Of a stretch of DNA of 47,180 nt, positions 18,994 to 35,156 are shown in pieces; position 1 is the first letter of the stretch, and each line of letters opens with the position of its first letter. Source of the stretch: a virus; IMG/VR virus record IMGVR_UViG_3300033145_000210, positions 1-47,180 of that record; one strand, written 5' to 3'. A model generated the notes under the pieces. The model was given only the letters and a program-made list of their open reading frames with translations. It was not told the DNA's origin and made no database searches. A program made the translations under genes and the position numbers.

Positions 18994-19021
18994 ATTATAC
19001 CACAACATCTTGTGTTGTCAA
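18994..19021 (-). promoter_or_regulatory. Late-operon sigma70 promoter with internal palindrome
   Basis: On the minus strand TTGACA (19021-19016) and TATAAT (18999-18994), both perfect, are separated by 16 bp. The spacer and -35 contain an inverted repeat ACAACA / TGTTGT (19002-19007 and 19013-19018), a likely operator. It directs transcription into the small membrane protein, terminase and the whole structural operon. Confidence 0.85.
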
Positions 19022-21972: not shown

Positions 21973-22152
21973 TCAATTCTCCTTTACTAACTGTCTCATT
22001 TCATGAATTGCCATACATTCTGGACACTGCGCTCTATGAGCTTTTTGGTATATCCCATGTTCATCATATTGCCTATAATGACGACGCGCCATACTGCGCG
22101 AGTCTTCAAAAGCTTTTATCCATTTGTGTAATTGTTTCTTTGTGATTGTCAT
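21973..22152 (-). CDS. Small Cys/His protein (59 aa)
   Basis: The start chosen at 22152 lies just after a repeated hairpin leader and its GAAAGGAAAA. The peptide is basic, with QCPECMAIHEM near the C terminus (single CxxC). A longer start at 22206 would run through the leader repeat and is less likely. Confidence 0.6.
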   Translation of the reverse strand: MTITKKQLHKWIKAFEDSRSMARRHYRQYDEHGIYQKAHRAQCPECMAIHEMRQLVKEN

Positions 22153-22159
22153 TCGCTTT

Positions 22160-22187
22160 TCCTTTCGGCCAAATGACCCCTTTGCGG
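22160..22187 (-). promoter_or_regulatory. Repeated hairpin leader, copy 1
   Basis: Minus-strand core CCGCAAAGGGGTCATTTGGC then CGAAAGGA directly before the gene starting at 22152. It is the most diverged of five related leaders; the left arm reads GGTCA, which leaves a G-U pair in the stem against TGGCC. Confidence 0.75.
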
Positions 22188-22250
22188 ATTCATCAATATG
22201 CTCCAAGACACATGCGTCAAGGACTCATACCCTTGTTGACTGCTGATCTG

Positions 22251-22451
22251 TCAGCCTAGTCGTTCAATTACCGCAGAGACCGACAACTCAAACACTGGAC
22301 AACTCTCTTCATGCTCTGGAAAGTGCTTATCACAGAAACGAACACAGTCACGATTTCCACAAGGAGTTGCTACAATGCAATCCTCTGTCGAAGCTTTTCC
22401 ACGATTTCGTTTTTTCCAATGCGCGTACATAATCCTTTCACGAATAGTCAT
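22251..22451 (-). CDS. Cys/His-rich small protein (66 aa)
   Basis: Contains ATPCGNRDCVRFCDKHFPEH followed by ESC, a compact cluster likely to bind zinc. The ATG at 22451 follows AAGGAGGAATTAGACTG. The basic N-terminal half (HWKKRNRGK) suggests nucleic-acid contact. Confidence 0.65.
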   Translation of the reverse strand: MTIRERIMYAHWKKRNRGKASTEDCIVATPCGNRDCVRFCDKHFPEHEESCPVFELSVSAVIERLG

Positions 22452-22474
22452 CAGTCTAATTCCTCCTTCTCTGT

Positions 22475-22711
22475 TTAGATAAAATACTTCATATTCTGAA
22501 TCTCTGCGTCCATTTCCTTGTAGTACCATTGCGCAGCGGCAGCGTTGCAAAGGACTGACATGATCGCTTTTGGTAGCGCGTAGCTACCAGCTTCTTGACT
22601 TTCCAGGTCGAGACAACCAGCTTTGAGGAGCTTGTCCAAGTCTTCTTGCATCTGTTTCGTTGTCTTTTCAATCAACTCTTTTGTCAAGGTGTAGCATTGT
22701 AGATCGGTCAT
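22475..22711 (-). CDS. Hypothetical helical protein (78 aa)
   Basis: Helical, with Ala-rich SVLCNAAAAQWYYKEMDAE near the C terminus. Its ATG overlaps the stop of the upstream 54-residue gene (ATGA) and follows AAAGGAGAA. No family recognised. Confidence 0.65.
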   Translation of the reverse strand: MTDLQCYTLTKELIEKTTKQMQEDLDKLLKAGCLDLESQEAGSYALPKAIMSVLCNAAAAQWYYKEMDAEIQNMKYFI

Positions 22712-22872
22712 TTCTTGATTCTCCTTTCAATCCAGTGCTCATGCTCAGGCCAGTCCTTGTTGGCCCTGTCGGCCTGCTCCTGCGCGTCAGCCTTAGTGAA
22801 TAGCGTTGTGTTGCCACCCTCATAGCCGGTTATCTTACTCCTCCACCGGATCACATATTGTTTTTCACTCAT
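22708..22872 (-). CDS. Small hypothetical protein (54 aa)
   Basis: A compact 54-codon frame, overlapping both neighbours by four bases, with GGAGGGAAAG before the ATG. Begins MSEKQYVIRWRSKITGYEGG: a short beta-rich domain with a helical tail ending in basic residues, resembling small phage proteins of unknown function. Confidence 0.65.
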   Translation of the reverse strand: MSEKQYVIRWRSKITGYEGGNTTLFTKADAQEQADRANKDWPEHEHWIERRIKK

Positions 22873-23168
22873 TCGTCTTTCCCTCCTCCCTGGGATGCCT
22901 CAATCTTAGATTGCTCTCTTTCTTGTTGTTTTTGCATGGCTTCATATGGCACCTTCCCTATCCGCCCCGTCCATATGGCGGCGAGGAATGCCGCTATCCA
23001 AAAAACAACTGCAAGCGGTATAAGGTACTCATACATCCTGTCGAGGAACAGACAGCCTTTATCAAGAAGCTCCTCTATCTTGCCAGACACTCTCATTGTC
23101 AGCCTCCCAGTGGTCGAGGGAAGGGTAAGGACTTTCTTGGGAGTGCGCTTCTTTCGCTGCTTGTTCAT
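22869..23168 (-). CDS. Single-pass membrane protein (99 aa)
   Basis: A very basic N terminus (MNKQRKKRTPKKVL) is followed by a transmembrane helix (LIPLAVVFWIAAFLAAIWTG) and a Glu/Gln/Lys-rich probable coiled-coil tail. The AAGGAGG leader is strong. Possibly a host-membrane modifier. Confidence 0.65.
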   Translation of the reverse strand: MNKQRKKRTPKKVLTLPSTTGRLTMRVSGKIEELLDKGCLFLDRMYEYLIPLAVVFWIAAFLAAIWTGRIGKVPYEAMQKQQEREQSKIEASQGGGKDE

Positions 23169-23169
23169 T

Positions 23170-23256
23170 TTATTTATCCTCCTTGATTCGGATGAGCAGA
23201 GCGGCAGCCTTGCGCGCGTCCCCGATAGTGATATACTTCCCGTTTATACCATACAT
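23170..23256 (-). CDS. Micro-protein (28 aa, possibly 47 aa)
   Basis: ATG at 23256 lies seven bases after the previous stop and the frame runs to TAA at 23170, just ahead of the next gene: MYGINGKYITIGDARKAAAL plus a short basic tail. A TTG at 23313 with GGAG upstream would add 19 residues but overlaps the upstream gene. Weak evidence either way. Confidence 0.4.
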   Translation of the reverse strand: MYGINGKYITIGDARKAAALLIRIKEDK

Positions 23257-23260
23257 GGAC

Positions 23261-23455
23261 TTATTGTCGCTTTGCTTCTCGATCGCGCTGATGCTGCTGC
23301 GCTGCTCTCCCAATTTTCTCCGCACATTCTGAGCAGAGGCTAATAGCCACAGGATTCGTAAACATTGGTAGAGATTTGAACAAGCGTACTACTATCGGCT
23401 TGTCCTGTTCGCACTCCGTACACTTTTCGATCTCACTACCTTCGATAAGAAGCAT
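23261..23455 (-). CDS. Four-cysteine zinc-ribbon micro-protein (64 aa)
   Basis: KCTECEQDKP and SLCSECAEKI give two CxxC pairs about 30 residues apart. The start at 23455 is set by the hairpin leader repeat and GAAAGGAAAA just upstream. A longer frame from 23548 would cover that leader and is rejected. Confidence 0.65.
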   Translation of the reverse strand: MLLIEGSEIEKCTECEQDKPIVVRLFKSLPMFTNPVAISLCSECAEKIGRAAQQHQRDREAKRQ

Positions 23456-23464
23456 GTCGTTTTT

Positions 23465-23491
23465 TCCTTTCGGCCAAATGGCCCCTATGCG
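23465..23491 (-). promoter_or_regulatory. Repeated hairpin leader, copy 2
   Basis: CGCATAGGGGCCATTTGGCC followed by GAAAGGA on the minus strand. The palindrome GGCCA-TT-TGGCC sits three bases 5' of the Shine-Dalgarno of the four-cysteine gene. Identical to copy 3 over 27 bp. Confidence 0.85.
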
Positions 23492-23499
23492 ATATTCCT

Positions 23500-24297
23500 C
23501 TACGTTTCCATTGCAAAGAAGTCCATCGGGGCACCACACTGTATGCACAGAACCTTACTCTCTCTAGTCTCTTTGTCCCACTTGATCCGCCAGATCGGAC
23601 CCTTCACGTCCCGGCCGTCCTCTATGTCGTGGAAGCTGTACCCCGCGTCGTAACTATCAAATACAGCAGTGCAGGGCTTTGCTTCAATGGCTTCCACTTC
23701 CAGGAAAAGCAACTGTCCCCGCTCACGATCCGCTATGAATGGGTCGGGGTGTCCTGTGCAAAATACTGTTACATCCACCATTGCACAGTGGAAGTAGTCG
23801 CCTATCATGAATATCTGCGGCGAACCATATCCGCCTCGGAGATCACACCCGCCGTGGACTTGAATTACTACCATGTCCACATCGTCATGTTCAAACTCCC
23901 AATATGCAAAGGGCTGGTCGAGAAGTGTATCCGGGTCTGTCAGTCCGTGATTCGTGACGGTTAGGCCCCGGTGCCTGAAAAACGCCTCAAGCACATCTTC
24001 CCATGCCTCATGCTTCCGCTTCGGATAGTTGGCGAATTTGTGAAGAGCCCTGTTCAACTGTTCACTCTCTTTCGTCAAGTTCAAGTGTGTTCGCATGAAA
24101 TGGTAAAGATTGAGATAAACCGACACGTCACCAAAACTATCAACTGTAACGGATATGGCATCCTCGGCGGGAAAGTCTCTTGACCGATTCCACTGCCAGT
24201 GGCGACCACCGGAACCCCCACTGTCGAGCATATGTGCTCCCGTATCCTCGCAAAGCATCGCTGCTACTCTCCGGTTTAGCTTTTTCTGTATGTCCAT
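23500..24297 (-). CDS. Hypothetical protein (265 aa)
   Basis: Largest unassigned gene in this block. No family recognised. It is acidic and aromatic-rich with several beta segments, and ends VLCIQCGAPMDFFAMET (one CxxC). ATG at 24297 is nine bases after AAAGGAG; a TTG six bases earlier is too close to it. Preceded by hairpin leader copy 3, followed by copy 2. Confidence 0.7.
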   Translation of the reverse strand: MDIQKKLNRRVAAMLCEDTGAHMLDSGGSGGRHWQWNRSRDFPAEDAISVTVDSFGDVSVYLNLYHFMRTHLNLTKESEQLNRALHKFANYPKRKHEAWEDVLEAFFRHRGLTVTNHGLTDPDTLLDQPFAYWEFEHDDVDMVVIQVHGGCDLRGGYGSPQIFMIGDYFHCAMVDVTVFCTGHPDPFIADRERGQLLFLEVEAIEAKPCTAVFDSYDAGYSFHDIEDGRDVKGPIWRIKWDKETRESKVLCIQCGAPMDFFAMET

Positions 24298-24307
24298 GTC
24301 CAATTTC

Positions 24308-24334
24308 TCCTTTCGGCCAAATGGCCCCTATGCG
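24308..24334 (-). promoter_or_regulatory. Repeated hairpin leader, copy 3
   Basis: Same 27-bp core as copy 2, including palindrome GGCCATTTGGCC and AAAGGA, in front of the 265-residue gene. Preceded by GAACCCG; copy 4 shares the ACCCG part of that extension. Confidence 0.85.
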
Positions 24335-24359
24335 GGTTCGTTATTACCCCCTTAAACAA

Positions 24360-24539
24360 TCAGCCCTCTATTTTATTAAGTATTATTTGACACGTTTTGC
24401 AATTACATTCTATGGAAGTGCCATTTTCTATGTCCTCTAAAACCGCATCTTCCGTCGCTTCTGTTATACTCCAAGCTAGTAAATGCACAAGCTCGGCTTT
24501 TGTGAGTTTACGCCATTTCTTTTCACTATTTGTGCTCAT
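24360..24539 (-). CDS. Small Cys-containing protein (59 aa)
   Basis: Begins MSTNSEKKWRKLTKAELVHL and has IECNCKTCQI near the C terminus (three cysteines), perhaps a metal knuckle. AAAGGAGAA precedes the ATG at 24539, as part of hairpin leader copy 4. Not assigned to a family. Confidence 0.65.
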   Translation of the reverse strand: MSTNSEKKWRKLTKAELVHLLAWSITEATEDAVLEDIENGTSIECNCKTCQIILNKIEG

Positions 24540-24548
24540 AACTAATTC

Positions 24549-24575
24549 TCCTTTCGATCAAATGGCCCCTACGCG
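24549..24575 (-). promoter_or_regulatory. Repeated hairpin leader, copy 4
   Basis: CGCGTAGGGGCCATTTGATC then GAAAGGA. Here the TAG inside the repeat is the stop codon of the upstream gene. The right arm reads TGATC, so the hairpin is weakened relative to copies 2 and 3. Confidence 0.8.
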
Positions 24576-24850
24576 GGTTTGTCCACTTCGATTCGCACTG
24601 TTTCAAGGTGTTCGAGTCTGTTTGCGATCTCACGAAACAGCAGCGCAAGGTCGGTAGCACTTCCTGCAAGGTATACGGGAGCTGTCGAGCCTATTTGCTT
24701 GGAGTACACCTCTACCATAGCAGAGGACACCCCTGCCTCAATGTCGATAAACGGGCCGATGGTGACGAATACGCTATGAGCACGCGCCGCCCCGTTTCGA
24801 CCTCTAAACATAATTTCTCGTTCTTGCCCGTCAAGTCTGAAATGTGCCAT
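24569..24850 (-). CDS. Hypothetical protein (93 aa)
   Basis: Alpha/beta protein of unknown function: beta-rich first part (HSVFVTIGPFIDIEAG) and a helix (ATDLALLFREIANRLEHLET). AAAGGAAAAG precedes the ATG. Its stop codon lies inside hairpin leader copy 4. Confidence 0.65.
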   Translation of the reverse strand: MAHFRLDGQEREIMFRGRNGAARAHSVFVTIGPFIDIEAGVSSAMVEVYSKQIGSTAPVYLAGSATDLALLFREIANRLEHLETVRIEVDKPA

Positions 24851-24909
24851 ATCGCTTTTCCTTTCAGTACCCGGTTCCTAGATATGCTGAGCAGAATTGA
24901 CTCATTCTT

Positions 24910-25065
24910 TTACTTATCGTCCCATGTTTCACCTTTCAACTCCCATGCTGTAGTTGAGCCGTCACCGTTGCTTAACTGTCCAGATGTGTTACCATCAGCG
25001 ATAGTTCGCCCGATTTCTTCTAGCACCTCGTCTCTTATAGCTTCTGGAATCTCAATATTACCCAT
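24910..25065 (-). CDS. Small hypothetical protein (51 aa)
   Basis: Begins MGNIEIPEAIRDEVLEEIGR and ends in WELKGETWDDK; helical start with a Trp-rich tail. The ATG follows AAGGAGAATTGAGAC in hairpin leader copy 5. No family assigned. Confidence 0.6.
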   Translation of the reverse strand: MGNIEIPEAIRDEVLEEIGRTIADGNTSGQLSNGDGSTTAWELKGETWDDK

Positions 25066-25075
25066 GTCTCAATTC

Positions 25076-25099
25076 TCCTTCCAGCCAAATGGCTCCTTA
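25076..25099 (-). promoter_or_regulatory. Repeated hairpin leader, copy 5
   Basis: TAAGGAGCCATTTGGCTGGA then AGGA on the minus strand. The palindrome is changed on both arms together (AGCCA / TGGCT), so the stem is kept by compensatory change. This supports a role for the hairpin itself. Confidence 0.75.
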
Positions 25100-25103
25100 C
25101 CTG

Positions 25104-25274
25104 TTATGCTCTCGCCAACTCACTTATTTGAAAATAGCCCGAATAGTCATATTCAGGAACGTCCACAAACCAGACTGGTCGCGCATCGCAGCAGCGCGTC
25201 TCCACTGCATCTGTCCAACCAAAGATGGTTGCTCCGTCAGTCCACCATTTTGGCATAATTACTTTGATCTGCAT
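25104..25274 (-). CDS. Small hypothetical protein (56 aa)
   Basis: Begins MQIKVIMPKWWTDGATIFGW, with RCCDARP in the middle and a Tyr/Asp-rich C-terminal part (DVPEYDYSGYFQ). AAGGAAGGAG precedes the ATG. Its strand-like pattern hints at a compact beta domain; no family assigned. Confidence 0.6.
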   Translation of the reverse strand: MQIKVIMPKWWTDGATIFGWTDAVETRCCDARPVWFVDVPEYDYSGYFQISELARA

Positions 25275-25290
25275 ATCCCGGGCTCCTTCC

Positions 25291-25554
25291 TTACTTTGAG
25301 TATTTCGCCACCACTCGGCATCCCGGATTATTTGTTTTCAAGTCGGCAAGCACCGCTTGCACAAAGACTTTGGGCCTGTCCCAATACATGGTATGGTAAA
25401 TGACATTACTCCCTTTTGTGCTCAATTGCCCTGTGCAGATGCTAGCCGAGCATCCGTCTACCATGAACCGGACAGGTTTACAGCTCTTGCTTATCTCTTT
25501 GGGCAGCGCGTCGAGTTGTTTTAGTGTCAGTGGATTGCATTTCGTCCCGTTCAT
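25291..25554 (-). CDS. Hypothetical protein (87 aa)
   Basis: Mixed alpha/beta protein with several cysteines (KSCKPVRF, DGCSASICTG, GCRVVAKY). GAAAGGACA precedes the ATG at 25554. Function unknown. Confidence 0.6.
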   Translation of the reverse strand: MNGTKCNPLTLKQLDALPKEISKSCKPVRFMVDGCSASICTGQLSTKGSNVIYHTMYWDRPKVFVQAVLADLKTNNPGCRVVAKYSK

Positions 25555-25580
25555 GACCTAGTGTCCTTTCCCTGTCGTTG

Positions 25581-25802
25581 TCATGACTCGTGGCGATTAG
25601 TGACCCACATATCAGGAACCCAACAGACGGTTGAGCTACCGCCCGAAACGCCGGTACAAACCAACCATGCCATCATACCACCAGAGAATCCGACAACCGA
25701 AAGACGCACGGGCTCCGATATTGGGGTAGATTTTACTGTGATTGATTTAATCCAGTACACCATATCCATTGTTTCTTGTACTGCCTCTAGTCCTGTTCGC
25801 AT
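25581..25802 (-). CDS. Small hydrophobic protein (73 aa)
   Basis: ATG at 25802 is preceded by GGGGGG at normal spacing. The mid-region VGFSGGMMAWLVCTGVSGGS is hydrophobic enough for a short membrane helix. No family assigned. Confidence 0.5.
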   Translation of the reverse strand: MRTGLEAVQETMDMVYWIKSITVKSTPISEPVRLSVVGFSGGMMAWLVCTGVSGGSSTVCWVPDMWVTNRHES

Positions 25803-25861
25803 AATCTTACCCCCCAAATGATAATAAGCTTTATTATGTTGCTCCTTACTCGTGTGGGCGA

Positions 25862-26077
25862 TTAGGCTTTACTTTTCCATATCATCCATCGGCCCGCGCA
25901 CTCACAGGTCACGCCTATTGATAATAAGCTAAGGCCCACAGTAGTAGTGGGGAAGTGATGACAGACTCGATTTGTGGAATTAAGCTCAAACACCCGCCCG
26001 CAGTGTGGACATGTAGCTGTGGGTTTGCATATCGCTCCGGGCTTGTGCCGGGTATGTGTCCATACTTGTTTGTTCAT
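25862..26077 (-). CDS. Zinc-ribbon-like protein (71 aa)
   Basis: TCPHCGRVFEL, then RVCHHF and TCECAGRW: several Cys and His spaced as in small zinc ribbons. GGGAGAGAAG precedes the ATG; the leader shares the linker found before two neighbouring genes. Confidence 0.6.
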   Translation of the reverse strand: MNKQVWTHTRHKPGAICKPTATCPHCGRVFELNSTNRVCHHFPTTTVGLSLLSIGVTCECAGRWMIWKSKA

Positions 26078-26094
26078 AGTCTCTTCTCTCCCAA

Positions 26095-26119
26095 GTTTAG
26101 GTCGTGCGCTTATTTATGG
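26095..26119 (-). repeat. Conserved intergenic linker, copy A
   Basis: Minus strand CCATAAATAAGCGCACGACC followed by TAAAC. It is almost identical (23 of 25 bases) to 26529-26553 and partly conserved at 26310-26335. It includes the last codons of the upstream gene plus the spacer before the next ribosome-binding site. Confidence 0.75.
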
Positions 26120-26298
26120 CTCAACCATTTATAGGAATCCGCCGTAGCTATATCCTGTTGATCTGCTGCGTACATGGTATCAAAACCGGTTGAATTGGGC
26201 ATATCATTTACGATGTACGAAAACGACCGCCTTGAAATCCATTGGCCCTTGAGATTTTGAAAAATACGACAGCGTTTTGAGGTTATTTTAGTAGCCAT
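26110..26298 (-). CDS. Hypothetical protein (62 aa)
   Basis: Basic, aromatic small protein (LKGQWISRRSFSYIVND). AGAGGAGCAACACGAC precedes the ATG, with the shared linker further upstream. No family assigned. Confidence 0.6.
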   Translation of the reverse strand: MATKITSKRCRIFQNLKGQWISRRSFSYIVNDMPNSTGFDTMYAADQQDIATADSYKWLSHK

Positions 26299-26330
26299 GT
26301 CGTGTTGCTCCTCTTGTTTAGGTCATGTAG

Positions 26331-26510
26331 TTAGAATTTAGCCCAAGCCGCACTTTCAATCTTTGCACTTTCAAGTGTGGTATAATGGAGCGTACAATCG
26401 CCCATAGCCCACAGTCCACGATTTGTCCGATGGGTTTGCACCCGATGGACAAACCAGCCGGGTTTATCTTTCTCTCTGTAAATGCGATATGTTCTTGTCA
26501 ATACTTTCAT
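26331..26510 (-). CDS. Hypothetical protein (59 aa)
   Basis: Starts MKVLTRTYRIYREKDKPGWF; basic and aromatic. AAAGGAGCGACACAAC lies before the ATG at 26510; a longer start at 26546 would cover that site. First gene after the candidate origin region. Confidence 0.6.
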   Translation of the reverse strand: MKVLTRTYRIYREKDKPGWFVHRVQTHRTNRGLWAMGDCTLHYTTLESAKIESAAWAKF

Positions 26511-26528
26511 GTTGTGTCGCTCCTTTCG

Positions 26529-26553
26529 TTTAGGTCGTGCGTTCATTTATGGT
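26529..26553 (-). repeat. Conserved intergenic linker, copy B
   Basis: CCATAAATGAACGCACGACC followed by TAAAC, the near-duplicate of the linker at 26095-26119, although here no gene lies upstream. This implies the linker moved as a unit with the downstream ribosome-binding site. Confidence 0.75.
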
Positions 26554-26555
26554 AT

Positions 26556-26583
26556 AGTATAGCAATATGTATGCCAACGTAAA
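26556..26583 (-). promoter_or_regulatory. Possible promoter for the 26510-19031 gene block
   Basis: TTTACG (26583-26578) and TATACT (26561-26556) with a 16-bp spacer on the minus strand, about 40 bases before the first gene of the block. Four of six -35 bases match consensus. The 16-bp spacing matches the clear promoters at 18994 and 34791. Confidence 0.4.
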
Positions 26584-26910
26584 CAATAACTATAAGTCAT
26601 TAGCATTGCTCTATTTGTGATTTACTTAGTCTTTTAAGCGAGTAGATACTTTGCCCAAATGGCATTACAAGATTGTAAAGTAGATGTTGTAAGTGCTTGC
26701 AGTTATTAGACTTGTAGGCTATTGAGTCTTGGTTGTCGCATTGTCATAATGGCAATTAAGTATAAGAGCATGAGACTAATAGACTTATAGTGTATGCTGG
26801 TTGATAATGATTGTCATTTGGGCATGGGTGAGAATGTCTCAGTTATGAGATAGTCTCAGTTATGAGATAGTCTCATAGTTGGTGGACTATAAGCATGCGT
26901 GGCTTGGCGG

Positions 26911-27000
26911 AATGCAGCGAGATCATGCGCTATTCGACAGGATGCAGCGAGATCATGCGCTATTCGACAGGATGCAGCGAGATCATGCGCTATTCGACAG
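26911..27000. repeat. Three 30-bp tandem repeats (iterons)
   Basis: The unit begins GATGCAGCGAGATCATGCGC and ends TATTCGACAG. Copies at 26911, 26941 and 26971 are identical except for the first base of copy 1. A fourth start (GATCATGG) follows at 27001. There are no unique spacers, so this is not CRISPR. Confidence 0.95.
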
Positions 27001-27140
27001 GATCATGGTGACTAGAGGCATACTCAACTCTTTTCCCTAATAGCTGACAGGCTCTCAGGACTGACGATCTCTCATAACTGAGACAGTCTCATTATCGACC
27101 GATCGATCAGGATTATCAATCTCATAGGCGCGTGGGCGAC

Positions 27141-28714: not shown

Positions 28715-29139
28715 TCTCCTTTCGCCGCCCCTCCCATAGACAAGTGGGGGTGTGGCGGCTCCACAGAGCCACCCCCCTCTTGGGGGGGGGTGGACAGGCA
28801 CCACAGGTCGTTACTCCTGCTGCGCCAACACTTTATGAGATAGTTACCCAACCAACTATTTCTACTTTCCTGTAATTGGTAAGTTGTTGTGTCCCAACGA
28901 GATAAGCCAGAAGACGTTTTCCGGGGCGAAATCTCGAAATAGTTATAAGTCCTTACTCCCCTATAAGATAAGAATGAAAGTAGGTCTCGAAAAGGCCCTT
29001 TCTGGCTTATCTTTTCCGTAGGACAACAGAACATCTTATCTTTCAGGCACTTAGCGATTTGCATTTTCGACTTACAAAGACGAAAAAAGACGTTCCCAAG
29101 TGAGGGTAACTTTCGCACGGTAACTATCTTATAAGTCAT
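28711..29139 (-). other. Doubtful open frame upstream of the resolvase
   Basis: Open for 142 codons from an ATG with a weak Shine-Dalgarno, ending at ATGA over the resolvase start. The peptide has noncoding-like composition and its last 25 residues translate the G/C hairpins. An inverted repeat of 13 bp (28900-28912 with 29000-29012) lies within it. More likely a leader region than a gene. Confidence 0.3.
28746..28790 (-). other. GC-rich competing hairpins before the resolvase gene
   Basis: On the minus strand a C9 tract, AAGA, then G6 can form one hairpin. The same G6 followed by TGGC can instead pair with GCCACACCCCC further downstream. The two folds exclude each other, as in an attenuator. 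They end about 30 bases before the resolvase ribosome-binding site. Confidence 0.5.
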
Positions 29140-29434
29140 TGTGCCCTGTACCTTTAGCGATTTGACCTTCTCCAAATATACTTGTAACTTTTTGGTAGGA
29201 CATTATAAACTCCTGCGCCCCAAGCACTTAGCGACGTATCCTTTTGACTTAACCCTCTAGTTGGATTGTAGGGGGTCTTAGCCCGATTACGTTGTATGAC
29301 ATACATTCTTCACAAAAGCGTACTTAACGCTTTTCTACTAAAGGACTTAACTGCTCTCAAATCTATTGACGTTTGGTGATTAATATACATTAGCTCAACA
29401 TGAATATTAGCTCTTCAGCTTCAATGTATGACAT
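29129..29434 (-). other. Intergenic stretch with duplicated start signals and micro-frames
   Basis: The sequence GGAGTTTATAATGTC occurs at 29446-29430 and 29215-29199, each followed by a TAC codon. The frames give MSYIEAEELIFMLS (14 aa, 29434-29390) and MSYQKVTSIFGEGQIAKGTG plus four residues (29203-29129). Direct repeats GCACTTAGCGA (29047 and 29224) and TTAGCGATTTG (29051 and 29154) lie nearby. It looks like remnants of duplicated small genes; no firm gene. Confidence 0.4.
29314..29334. terminator. Bidirectional terminator-like hairpin
   Basis: Perfect 8-bp arms AAAAGCGT / ACGCTTTT with a 5-base loop. The A-rich and T-rich ends give a short U-run in both directions. Low GC content makes it a modest terminator at best. 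Confidence 0.45.
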
Positions 29435-33215: not shown

Positions 33216-33461
33216 TCATGACATATAGATTTCTCTTTGAATACTTCTGTGATTTTTTAATGCGCCGTGTAGAACACGACTATTGGCGAGGCGAGGGAGT
33301 GAGCGTGCTCTATAAGGGTAGTAGGCTTTTTGTCTTGATTCGCTGTGTCCTAGTTGTAGGGCTACAGGTCTACCCTCGTTTAGTGGTGGAGTGCGTAATA
33401 GCTCATCGTCTGGTAGCGTTGCTCCTTCTGGTTCCATCATACCCCATTGATTGTCGTCCAT
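33216..33461 (-). CDS. Hypothetical protein (81 aa)
   Basis: Begins MDDNQWGMMEPEGATLPDDE; polar start and Arg-rich C-terminal part. ATG at 33461 follows AAAAGGAGAATGCCGAC. This leader is the best match seen to the candidate small RNA at 34833-34925. No family recognised. Confidence 0.6.
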   Translation of the reverse strand: MDDNQWGMMEPEGATLPDDELLRTPPLNEGRPVALQLGHSESRQKAYYPYRARSLPRLANSRVLHGALKNHRSIQREIYMS

Positions 33462-33483
33462 GTCGGCATTCTCCTTTTCTACT

Positions 33484-34026: not shown

Positions 34027-34284
34027 TCAGCTTCCTGTCTTTAGTTGTTTTGGACTACCAAAAAAAGCCGGGTGCGCCGTGGTCTCGTTGCAGAGCCATT
34101 CTGTCCAGGGGATTAAGTCTTCAAGGACCTCGGCGCTGCACGTCTCTAACAATCTGGCACGTCCCTGACTGACACGGCGCTCCCGGTGTAGTATCATGCT
34201 TAGATTTTGTGTGGTGATACCAGCTAATTTAGCCAGTCGTTTACGCTGTCTGTATTTCCAAAAGGTTGTTGGTTTTATGGTCAT
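34027..34284 (-). CDS. Cro/YdaS-like helix-turn-helix regulator (85 aa)
   Basis: KRLAKLAGITTQNLSMILHR is a helix-turn-helix (LAKLAGITTQNLSMIL), followed by ERRVSQGRARLLE as the next helix. Size is right for a Cro-type repressor. It lies close to the divergent promoter region and is a natural candidate to bind the 17-bp palindrome at 35002-35018. Overlaps the MazG-like gene by four bases. Binding is inferred. Confidence 0.7.
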   Translation of the reverse strand: MTIKPTTFWKYRQRKRLAKLAGITTQNLSMILHRERRVSQGRARLLETCSAEVLEDLIPWTEWLCNETTAHPAFFGSPKQLKTGS

Positions 34285-34592: not shown

Positions 34593-34750
34593 TAGCTTGT
34601 CTCTTTTCCGCAACATTGCTTGAATCGTTTTCCACTGTCACAAGGACATCGGCTGTTTCGTGTGAGGAGTAGTATATGCTTCTTTTCCATTTGACGACGA
34701 GTTTTAATGGGGATGGAGCGGGGACTGAGAGGCTTGATGATTTGTTGCAT
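34592..34750 (-). CDS. SEC-C motif peptide (52 aa)
   Basis: Short gene directly behind a consensus promoter. The second half, CPCDSGKRFKQCCGK (Cys35, Cys37, Cys46, Cys47), is the zinc-binding SEC-C motif known from the C terminus of SecA, where it contacts SecB. A free SEC-C peptide could bind host SecB or other partners; this is inference. AAAAGGAG lies before the ATG. Confidence 0.75.
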   Translation of the reverse strand: MQQIIKPLSPRSIPIKTRRQMEKKHILLLTRNSRCPCDSGKRFKQCCGKETS

Positions 34751-34790: not shown

Positions 34791-34818
34791 ATTATACACA
34801 TATTCTTGGGTTTGTCAA
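34791..34818 (-). promoter_or_regulatory. Early sigma70 promoter for the minus-strand operon
   Basis: TTGACA (34818-34813) and TATAAT (34796-34791), both perfect, with a 16-bp spacer, ending 40 bases before the SEC-C gene start. Drives SEC-C, MazG-like, Cro-like and downstream genes. Confidence 0.88.
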
Positions 34819-34832
34819 GTGCTGGAAGGTTT

Positions 34833-34925
34833 ATAGAGAAAAGGGGCTACGTTATGCAGCCCCTTTCCAGCGTGCTCTACCATAGAGGTAGAGCTAACAC
34901 AAAGGAGAAACCCGACATGAGGGTT
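34833..34925 (-). ncRNA. Candidate phage small RNA with anti-ribosome-binding-site sequence
   Basis: Predicted transcript of about 93 nt from the perfect promoter at 34932-34960 to the terminator at 34840-34866. Its 5' part contains CATGTCGGGTTTCTCCTTT, complementary to AAAGGAGAAACCCGACATG. A middle hairpin has 8-bp arms GCTCTACC / GGTAGAGC (34874-34881, 34887-34894). No gene fits inside it on this strand. Function inferred: it could pair with the many AAAGGAGAA...GACATG leaders of this phage. Confidence 0.55.
34840..34866 (-). terminator. Rho-independent terminator
   Basis: Minus strand AAAGGGGCT / AGCCCCTTT, a 9-bp perfect stem with a 9-base loop, followed by TTCTCTATAA so that the 3' side reads CCCCTTTTCTCT. 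It lies between two minus-strand promoters and should stop transcripts from the upstream one. Confidence 0.75.
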
Positions 34926-34931
34926 ATTTGT

Positions 34932-34960
34932 ATTATATCTTATATCCCGGTGTGTGTCAA
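34932..34960 (-). promoter_or_regulatory. Perfect-consensus sigma70 promoter for the small RNA
   Basis: TTGACA (34960-34955), 17-bp spacer, TATAAT (34937-34932) on the minus strand: an exact match to consensus, the strongest promoter in the window. No protein gene follows before the terminator at 34840-34866. Confidence 0.85.
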
Positions 34961-35001
34961 GTTCTTTCTCCTTGAAGTGGTAGAAAAAGTGATTTGAAAA
35001 A

Positions 35002-35018
35002 GTCTCTTGACAAGAGAC
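35002..35018. promoter_or_regulatory. 17-bp perfect palindromic operator
   Basis: GTCTCTTG-A-CAAGAGAC, 8-bp arms around one base, lying over the -35 box of the plus-strand promoter. A bound repressor would block RNA polymerase. The Cro-like or ribbon-helix-helix protein of this phage are candidate ligands. Confidence 0.75.
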
Positions 35019-35035
35019 GTTTTATGTGCTATACT
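35007..35035 (+). promoter_or_regulatory. Sigma70 promoter of the replication operon
   Basis: TTGACA (35007-35012), 17-bp spacer, TATACT (35030-35035). It precedes a 115-base leader and the SNF2 helicase gene. The operator palindrome overlaps it. Confidence 0.88.
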
Positions 35036-35045
35036 GTTTTTGGTT

Positions 35046-35112
35046 GGGGGAGCCTAAGTCAGATTGCAGCAGAGTACGCGACTCTGTATCGCAAGAGCGC
35101 TTTCGCTCCCCC
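35046..35112 (+). ncRNA. Long structured 5' leader hairpin
   Basis: Starting within a few bases of the predicted transcription start: outer stem GGGGGAG / CTCCCCC (35046-35052, 35106-35112), inner TTGC / GCAA (35064-35067, 35091-35094) and apical CAGAGT-ACGCG-ACTCTG (35070-35086). It resembles a tRNA in size but has no T arm. It probably protects the mRNA 5' end or regulates the helicase operon. Confidence 0.55.
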
Positions 35113-35156
35113 GGCCATCAATATTGTCAAAATTGTCGAAGCTGTCGAAAGGTCTT

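Follow-up and report, generated by a model that had tools for sequence, protein, structure and literature searches.

Does the control region between two divergent operons of an uncultured phage encode a free-standing small RNA (sRNA), and, if so, what does that RNA pair with? To our knowledge, phage-encoded small RNAs are few and come mostly from temperate phages of enterobacteria, and the sRNA locus described here, in an uncultured podovirus-like phage, offers a candidate that is both compact and testable. The window, i.e., the whole stretch of DNA that was analyzed, is the 47,180-base record IMGVR_UViG_3300033145_000210, which apparently derives from a podovirus-like tailed phage. It encodes a portal protein with ~40% identity to the portals of epsilon15-type phages, a DNA polymerase, a primase, and an SNF2-type helicase, and no RNA polymerase or integrase was found among the window proteins examined. 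Most genes are oriented leftward, beginning at 34,750, and a helicase-polymerase operon is oriented rightward from 35,157; the sRNA locus lies in the control region between these divergent operons. Its features are as follows.

34932-34960, minus strand: sigma-70 promoter of the sRNA, TTGACA-17-TATAAT, a 12/12 match, with the -35 element at 34960-34955 and the -10 element at 34937-34932.
34833-34925, minus strand: predicted sRNA of ~93 nt with three hairpins and a single-stranded linker, based on the sequence, the fold (z score, -7.6), and per-base unpaired probabilities.
34909-34925, minus strand: hairpin 1, AACCC-UCAUGUC-GGGUU (-4.6 kcal/mol), with a loop complementary to GACATGA.
34901-34908, minus strand: single-stranded linker (seed) UCUCCUUU, complementary to AAAGGAGA, the pairing running on into hairpin 1 as UUUCUCCUUU.
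34870-34900, minus strand: hairpin 2, GUGUUAGCUCUACC-UCUAU-GGUAGAGCACGC (-16.0 kcal/mol), with one G-U pair.
34838-34868, minus strand: intrinsic terminator with a 13-bp stem, GGAAAGGGGCUGC-AUAAC-GUAGCCCCUUUUC (-21.4 kcal/mol), two G-U pairs, and UUUU in the 3' arm.
34791-34818, minus strand: second perfect promoter, TTGACA-16-TATAAT, which drives the leftward operon (SEC-C protein, MazG-like protein, HTH protein, and primase).
35007-35035, plus strand: rightward promoter, TTGACA-17-TATACT, with its -35 element inside a perfect dyad, GTCTCTTG-A-CAAGAGAC (35002-35018).

The layout agrees with the earlier note on this DNA, which had described a perfect TTGACA-17-TATAAT promoter reading into ~93 bases without a protein gene, a strong terminator, and then a second promoter (that at 34818) that starts the operon proper. 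The predicted transcription start near 34925 is the first base of hairpin 1, and the RNA ends before the second promoter. A 100-nt fold of the sRNA reached -44.5 kcal/mol, compared with -22.2 ± 2.9 kcal/mol for shuffled sequences (z = -7.6), and none of 200 shuffles equaled it. The linker between hairpins 1 and 2 (UUUCUCCUU) has an unpaired probability of ~0.9 or more at each base. Three of the 30 pairs in the sRNA are G-U pairs, whose plus-strand equivalents are A-C mismatches, and the plus strand (88 nt) folds to only -34.8 kcal/mol; the G-U pairs and this asymmetry of fold energy favor the minus-strand RNA as the selected folded molecule. The idea of a free-standing RNA, put forward in that note, is therefore supported as a structured, strand-specific unit by the promoter, fold, terminator, and G-U asymmetry.

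No minus-strand open reading frame (ORF) of at least 40 amino acids lies within the sRNA, where we found just a 13-codon frame lacking a Shine-Dalgarno site. A leader-peptide attenuator built on this frame (MSGFSFVLALPLW) was set aside, given the missing Shine-Dalgarno site and a leader of 7 nt. At the level of sequence, the locus thus has what defines an independently transcribed sRNA, namely, its own promoter, an intrinsic terminator, and no protein-coding ORF. No tRNA or tmRNA was detected, and no Rfam family reached its gathering threshold at the locus, where the matches were at chance level (DapZ, 18.8 versus 56; BTnc231, 18.2 versus 80.4). In our judgment, a real transcription unit very probably exists here.

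Perfect sigma-70 promoters (TTGACA-16/18-TATAAT) are in excess in the window as a whole, with three found (at 34960, 34818, and 19021, all on the minus strand) versus 0.027 expected, and two of the three sit at the sRNA locus. The third (18994-19021, minus strand; TTGACAACACAAGATGTTGTGGTATAAT) includes a CAACA-TGTTG dyad and lies ahead of gene 18945, with the structural genes farther downstream. Several other regulatory-looking elements were observed. The dyad that spans the -35 element of the rightward promoter resembles a repressor operator, and an HTH gene (HTH_3/YdaS-like, sub-threshold; 34027-34284) belongs to the leftward operon. In the helicase mRNA leader (35041-35118, plus strand), a long hairpin is predicted, with 13 bp closing it (-48 kcal/mol; z = -4.1). 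Three 30-bp tandem repeats of the ATCCTGTCGAATAGCGCATGATCTCGCTGC type (26894-27003) lie within an ORF-poor block of ~650 bp that may be a replication origin or have a regulatory role. Another ORF-poor and modestly structured block (28800-29400, minus strand; z = -2.1 with 20 shuffles) precedes a Holliday junction resolvase-like gene and had no Rfam match.

To ask what the RNA might pair with, we called start regions by a simple rule (a Shine-Dalgarno site, a start codon, and an ORF of at least 30 codons), which yielded 58 regions, some of them possibly wrong calls. The mean longest exact complement between the sRNA and these regions was 7.1 nt, compared with 5.73 ± 0.36 nt in dinucleotide shuffles (7 of 2,000 as high), and runs of at least 9 bases occurred in 12 start regions versus 0.83 in shuffles (1 of 2,000 reaching that number). 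In the comparison with shuffled controls that had been proposed for this RNA, its pairing energy with the start regions beat all 300 dinucleotide shuffles (0/300 as low). When the UUUCUCCUUUG core was kept and the remainder was shuffled, the P value for pairing energy was 0.007 to 0.013; the Shine-Dalgarno core therefore accounts for much of the signal, with a modest contribution from bases that extend the match towards GACATG. Once the cost of opening was included, start regions bound at a net -10.1 kcal/mol, compared with -4.5 kcal/mol for segments inside coding sequences (P = 5e-13). An unpaired anti-Shine-Dalgarno motif and a pairing excess over shuffles, the two properties of anti-Shine-Dalgarno trans-acting sRNAs that we checked, are thus both present. 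Like the promoter, fold, terminator, and strand asymmetry, this excess complementarity is either read from the DNA or computed from it. The sites concerned are the following.

24295-24313, minus strand: start region of the 265-amino-acid gene 24297, the best predicted trans target (net -23.3 kcal/mol, including opening costs).
25063-25080, minus strand: start region of gene 25065, a predicted trans target (-20.4 kcal/mol).
33459-33477, minus strand: start region of gene 33461, a predicted trans target (9 + 8 bases; -20.2 kcal/mol).
34901-34919, plus strand: near-ideal translation start region AAAGGAGAAACCCGACATG, opposite the sRNA, with AAAGGAG, 9 nt, and ATG.

The complementarity of the 5' part of the RNA to AAAGGAGAAACCCGACATG that had been pointed out is exact by construction, and the 33461 leader matches just as described (AAAGGAGAA, two mismatches, CCGACATG). 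The accompanying statement that many early genes carry AAAGGAGAA...GACATG was too broad: both parts are present only at 24297 and 33461, 26298 comes within three mismatches, and looser variants precede 25065 (AAGGAGAATTGAGACATG) and 39461 (AAAGGAGATTTTGACATG). The shorter AAGGAGAA is common in the window (20 copies versus 2.5 expected). A second contact, between the hairpin 2 loop CCUCUAUGG and CAUAGGGG in the 24297 leader, was not relied on because a rough estimate puts its occurrence by chance at a few percent and because a hairpin of -16 kcal/mol would need to be opened. Five leftward genes (25065, 24539, 24297, 23455, and 22152; 22146-25097, minus strand) share a leader repeat of ~36 to 42 nt, GGGGCCATTTGGCCGAAAGGAGAA, which has a short GGCC-AUUU-GGCC hairpin directly before the Shine-Dalgarno site; the repeated leader GGCCATTTGGCCGAAAGGA had no match in other viral contigs.

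Is this complementarity specific to the phage? The AAAGGAG starts of the window and 36 such starts of other phages, from which loci fetched by the sRNA's own 16-mer were excluded, both pair with the sRNA at -18.5 kcal/mol (P = 0.59). The proposal of the earlier note that the RNA is antisense to the phage's own ribosome-binding-site consensus is not upheld in that form, and own-consensus specificity is rejected: the match is general and not tuned to the phage. Moreover, antisense sequences of the phage's own gene starts perform nearly as well, the sRNA ranking among the best 12 to 16% of those. The 16-mer CACAAAGGAGAAACCC (plus strand) occurs at 19 places across 2.9 million viral contigs, and 13 of these 19 other viral copies (6 of 12 distinct sequences) directly precede an ATG with at least 73 codons. 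The motif is therefore one that phage start regions commonly have, and at the locus a plus-strand start accounts for it as well as a minus-strand antisense seed does. The control with starts of other phages illustrates a general pitfall, in that complementarity to the ribosome-binding consensus alone reveals little about targets.

Relatives of the phage in the collections were distant (helicase, up to 47 to 49%; portal, up to 53%). One of them, IMGVR_UViG_3300028920_000119 (G012), has the same divergent order, with HTH protein, primase, and SEC-C protein genes leftward and a helicase gene rightward; its HTH protein is 43% identical to that of the window, and both contain the motif IPWxxWLxNxTTxHPAF. 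The G012 intergenic region (~140 bp between the operons) showed no sign of the sRNA and no match to a covariance model, which was built from the single sRNA sequence and matched nothing but itself. The same gene order without the sRNA makes the sRNA and the adjoining genes look like an addition in this phage lineage and not like a component of the conserved switch. Where the window has the sRNA, G012 (23500-27000; locus L093) has a short intergenic region with a GGGTACCC-type palindrome.

The search for conservation in related phages that had been suggested as a check turned up no homolog in 26 records and 15 architecture-pattern hits, together ~0.8 Mb of loci that are related or match the pattern, and, with the one same-order relative also lacking the sRNA, neither conservation nor covariation supports the RNA. 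None of the 19 places with CACAAAGGAGAAACCC shared the promoter or the hairpins of the sRNA; most of them represent the reverse reading of an ordinary gene start. A pattern that takes structure into account (TATAAT, hairpin, and TCTCC) retrieved 15 places, of which only one, L097, was similar (hairpin, linker, and terminator); it was rejected as a relative, as the TATAAT there apparently belongs to the end of a gene. A helicase search of 84,980 genomes found no host or prophage relative, and there was no DNA match in phage or plasmid records.

The plus strand itself suggests another use for the RNA, since the start region opposite the linker opens a short frame.

34917-34997, plus strand: 26-codon hydrophobic frame MRVICIISYIPVCVKFFLLEVVEKVI (GRAVY, 1.72), a possible cis target.

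Here the minus-strand RNA would silence the start of the 26-amino-acid peptide by full-length pairing, as a cis antisense pair resembling a type I toxin-antitoxin system. The locus does hold a small hydrophobic ORF with its own Shine-Dalgarno site opposite an antisense RNA, full complementarity would be worth -72 kcal/mol, and the tendency of the 16-mer to precede real ORFs speaks for a plus-strand start. Among the 285 ATG frames of 20 to 35 codons in the window, none has a higher GRAVY value than this peptide, which also exceeds 97.8% of composition-matched shuffles, but part of this hydrophobicity is to be expected of a frame that lies opposite a promoter and is T rich. As coding sequence, the frame scored no differently from shuffles (P = 0.27), although the scores of real short genes extend into the same range, and a search of 50,697 phage records revealed nothing related to the peptide. 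The sole plus-strand promoter upstream, TTGATA-16-TATTCT, matches at 9/12, a grade found 29 times versus 22.1 expected per 17 kb. Translation and conservation of this frame had been named as an outcome that would count against the sRNA; the near-ideal start and the hydrophobic peptide fit that alternative, whereas the chance-level promoter and the lack of a relative do not, and we consider a cis pair rather unlikely. If cis action were true, a phage control region would here contain a type I toxin-antitoxin-like pair of very small size.

Other explanations keep the RNA and move its partner or discount its function. That a real sRNA has its main partner elsewhere (host mRNAs, a host small RNA, or a protein), the match of CUCCUUU to Shine-Dalgarno sites being generic as in host anti-Shine-Dalgarno sRNAs, would fit both the tie with starts of other phages and the fact that reported phage sRNAs, such as PreS, VpdS, and AgvB, often have host targets or host sRNAs as partners (PMC12197685), yet the clear net binding advantage at phage start regions argues against it, and we regard it as unlikely. 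The strong promoter and strong terminator just upstream of an operon, together with an inverted repeat (GCTGGAA/TTCCAGC) that flanks the terminator and could refold in a read-through RNA, might instead mark an attenuated leader like the lambda pR'-6S RNA, with read-through by an antitermination factor and a short RNA of little function as the by-product of a transcription switch. Read-through is unnecessary for the leftward operon, however, because the perfect promoter at 34818 directly follows the terminator; no antiterminator gene was recognized among the proteins searched, and a switch leaves unexplained both the open linker and why hairpin 1 starts exactly at +1, so that we find this reading decidedly unlikely. 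It is very improbable that there is no RNA function at all, with the complementarity a matter of chance or a relic plus-strand start region and the transcript tolerated noise. The lack of conservation in the collections searched would suit such noise, as would a core-independent match of only P ~0.01, picked after the data were seen, but three independent signals (the perfect promoter, the z = -7.6 fold with strand-specific G-U pairs, and the terminator) coincide in a 130-bp unit.

The explanation that we tentatively prefer, with a probability of about 0.4, is that of a lineage-specific, free-standing phage sRNA that blocks ribosome loading in trans via Shine-Dalgarno pairing. Host sigma-70 RNA polymerase would transcribe the sRNA from the control region that separates the two operons, and the 5' hairpin and the terminator would stabilize it. 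The exposed UUUCUCCUUU linker would then base pair with Shine-Dalgarno regions, a contact that hairpin 1 could lengthen onto GACAUG start codons through its UCAUGUC loop, so that ribosome loading would be blocked in trans, chiefly on a few leftward genes (24297, 25065, and 33461). We infer the transcription of the sRNA, its pairing in vivo, repression, or the titration that the earlier note also proposed, as the effect, and the timing. This explanation is weakened because foreign AAAGGAG starts pair as well and because antisense sequences of the phage's own starts are nearly as good. A broader version, in which the sRNA pairs with many phage (and perhaps host) start regions as a global translation brake that sets the order of early gene expression, seems improbable to us. 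As to its class, the RNA is best read as a phage-encoded antisense or anti-Shine-Dalgarno sRNA, a known kind, with a putative function.

Several known systems share parts of this arrangement. At lambda pR', a strong promoter yields a short terminated RNA (6S) upstream of an operon. The sRNA locus is alike in its strong promoter, short terminated RNA, and downstream operon, and it differs in having a second perfect promoter after the terminator and no recognized Q-like gene. Lambda OOP RNA, an antisense RNA to the cII gene that favors cleavage by RNase III (PMC12197685), likewise is short, has its own promoter, and comes from a control/replication region, whereas no gene with promoter support lies opposite the sRNA described here. 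The small phage RNAs sar of P22 and c4 of P1/P7 keep the ant mRNA from being translated by pairing with it, c4 near the ribosome-binding site (PMC12197685). Our sRNA is predicted to be a small phage antisense-type RNA as well, but sar and c4 belong to temperate phages and have a single defined target, an ant mRNA, and no ant gene was recognized in the window. The prophage type I toxin-antitoxin loci hokW-sokW and yonT/SR6 (PMC8621323, PMC5848175) also have an antisense RNA of ~100 nt opposite a tiny hydrophobic ORF, with the overlap in our case at the start region; unlike those loci, the one studied here has no credible toxin promoter and no toxin homology, and its toxin is putative.

The closest resemblance in mode of action would be to the alpha-r14 or "cuckoo" anti-Shine-Dalgarno sRNAs of rhizobia (NfeR1), which are bacterial, conserved, and equipped with three copies of CCUCCUCCC (PMC10746234). 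Both are short, trans-type RNAs with three hairpins and an unpaired anti-Shine-Dalgarno motif within reach of many start regions (PMC10746234). In contrast to alpha-r14, the sRNA is phage borne, has a single UUUCUCCUUU linker, and bears no sequence relation to that family, and its trans action is predicted; the CCUCCUCCC motif in three loops is absent from it, as is any Rfam family at the gathering threshold. By this analogy, the sRNA would work like alpha-r14 RNAs without being a member of their family. If its trans action is true, it would be a phage counterpart of the anti-Shine-Dalgarno sRNAs, with one RNA repressing several start regions.
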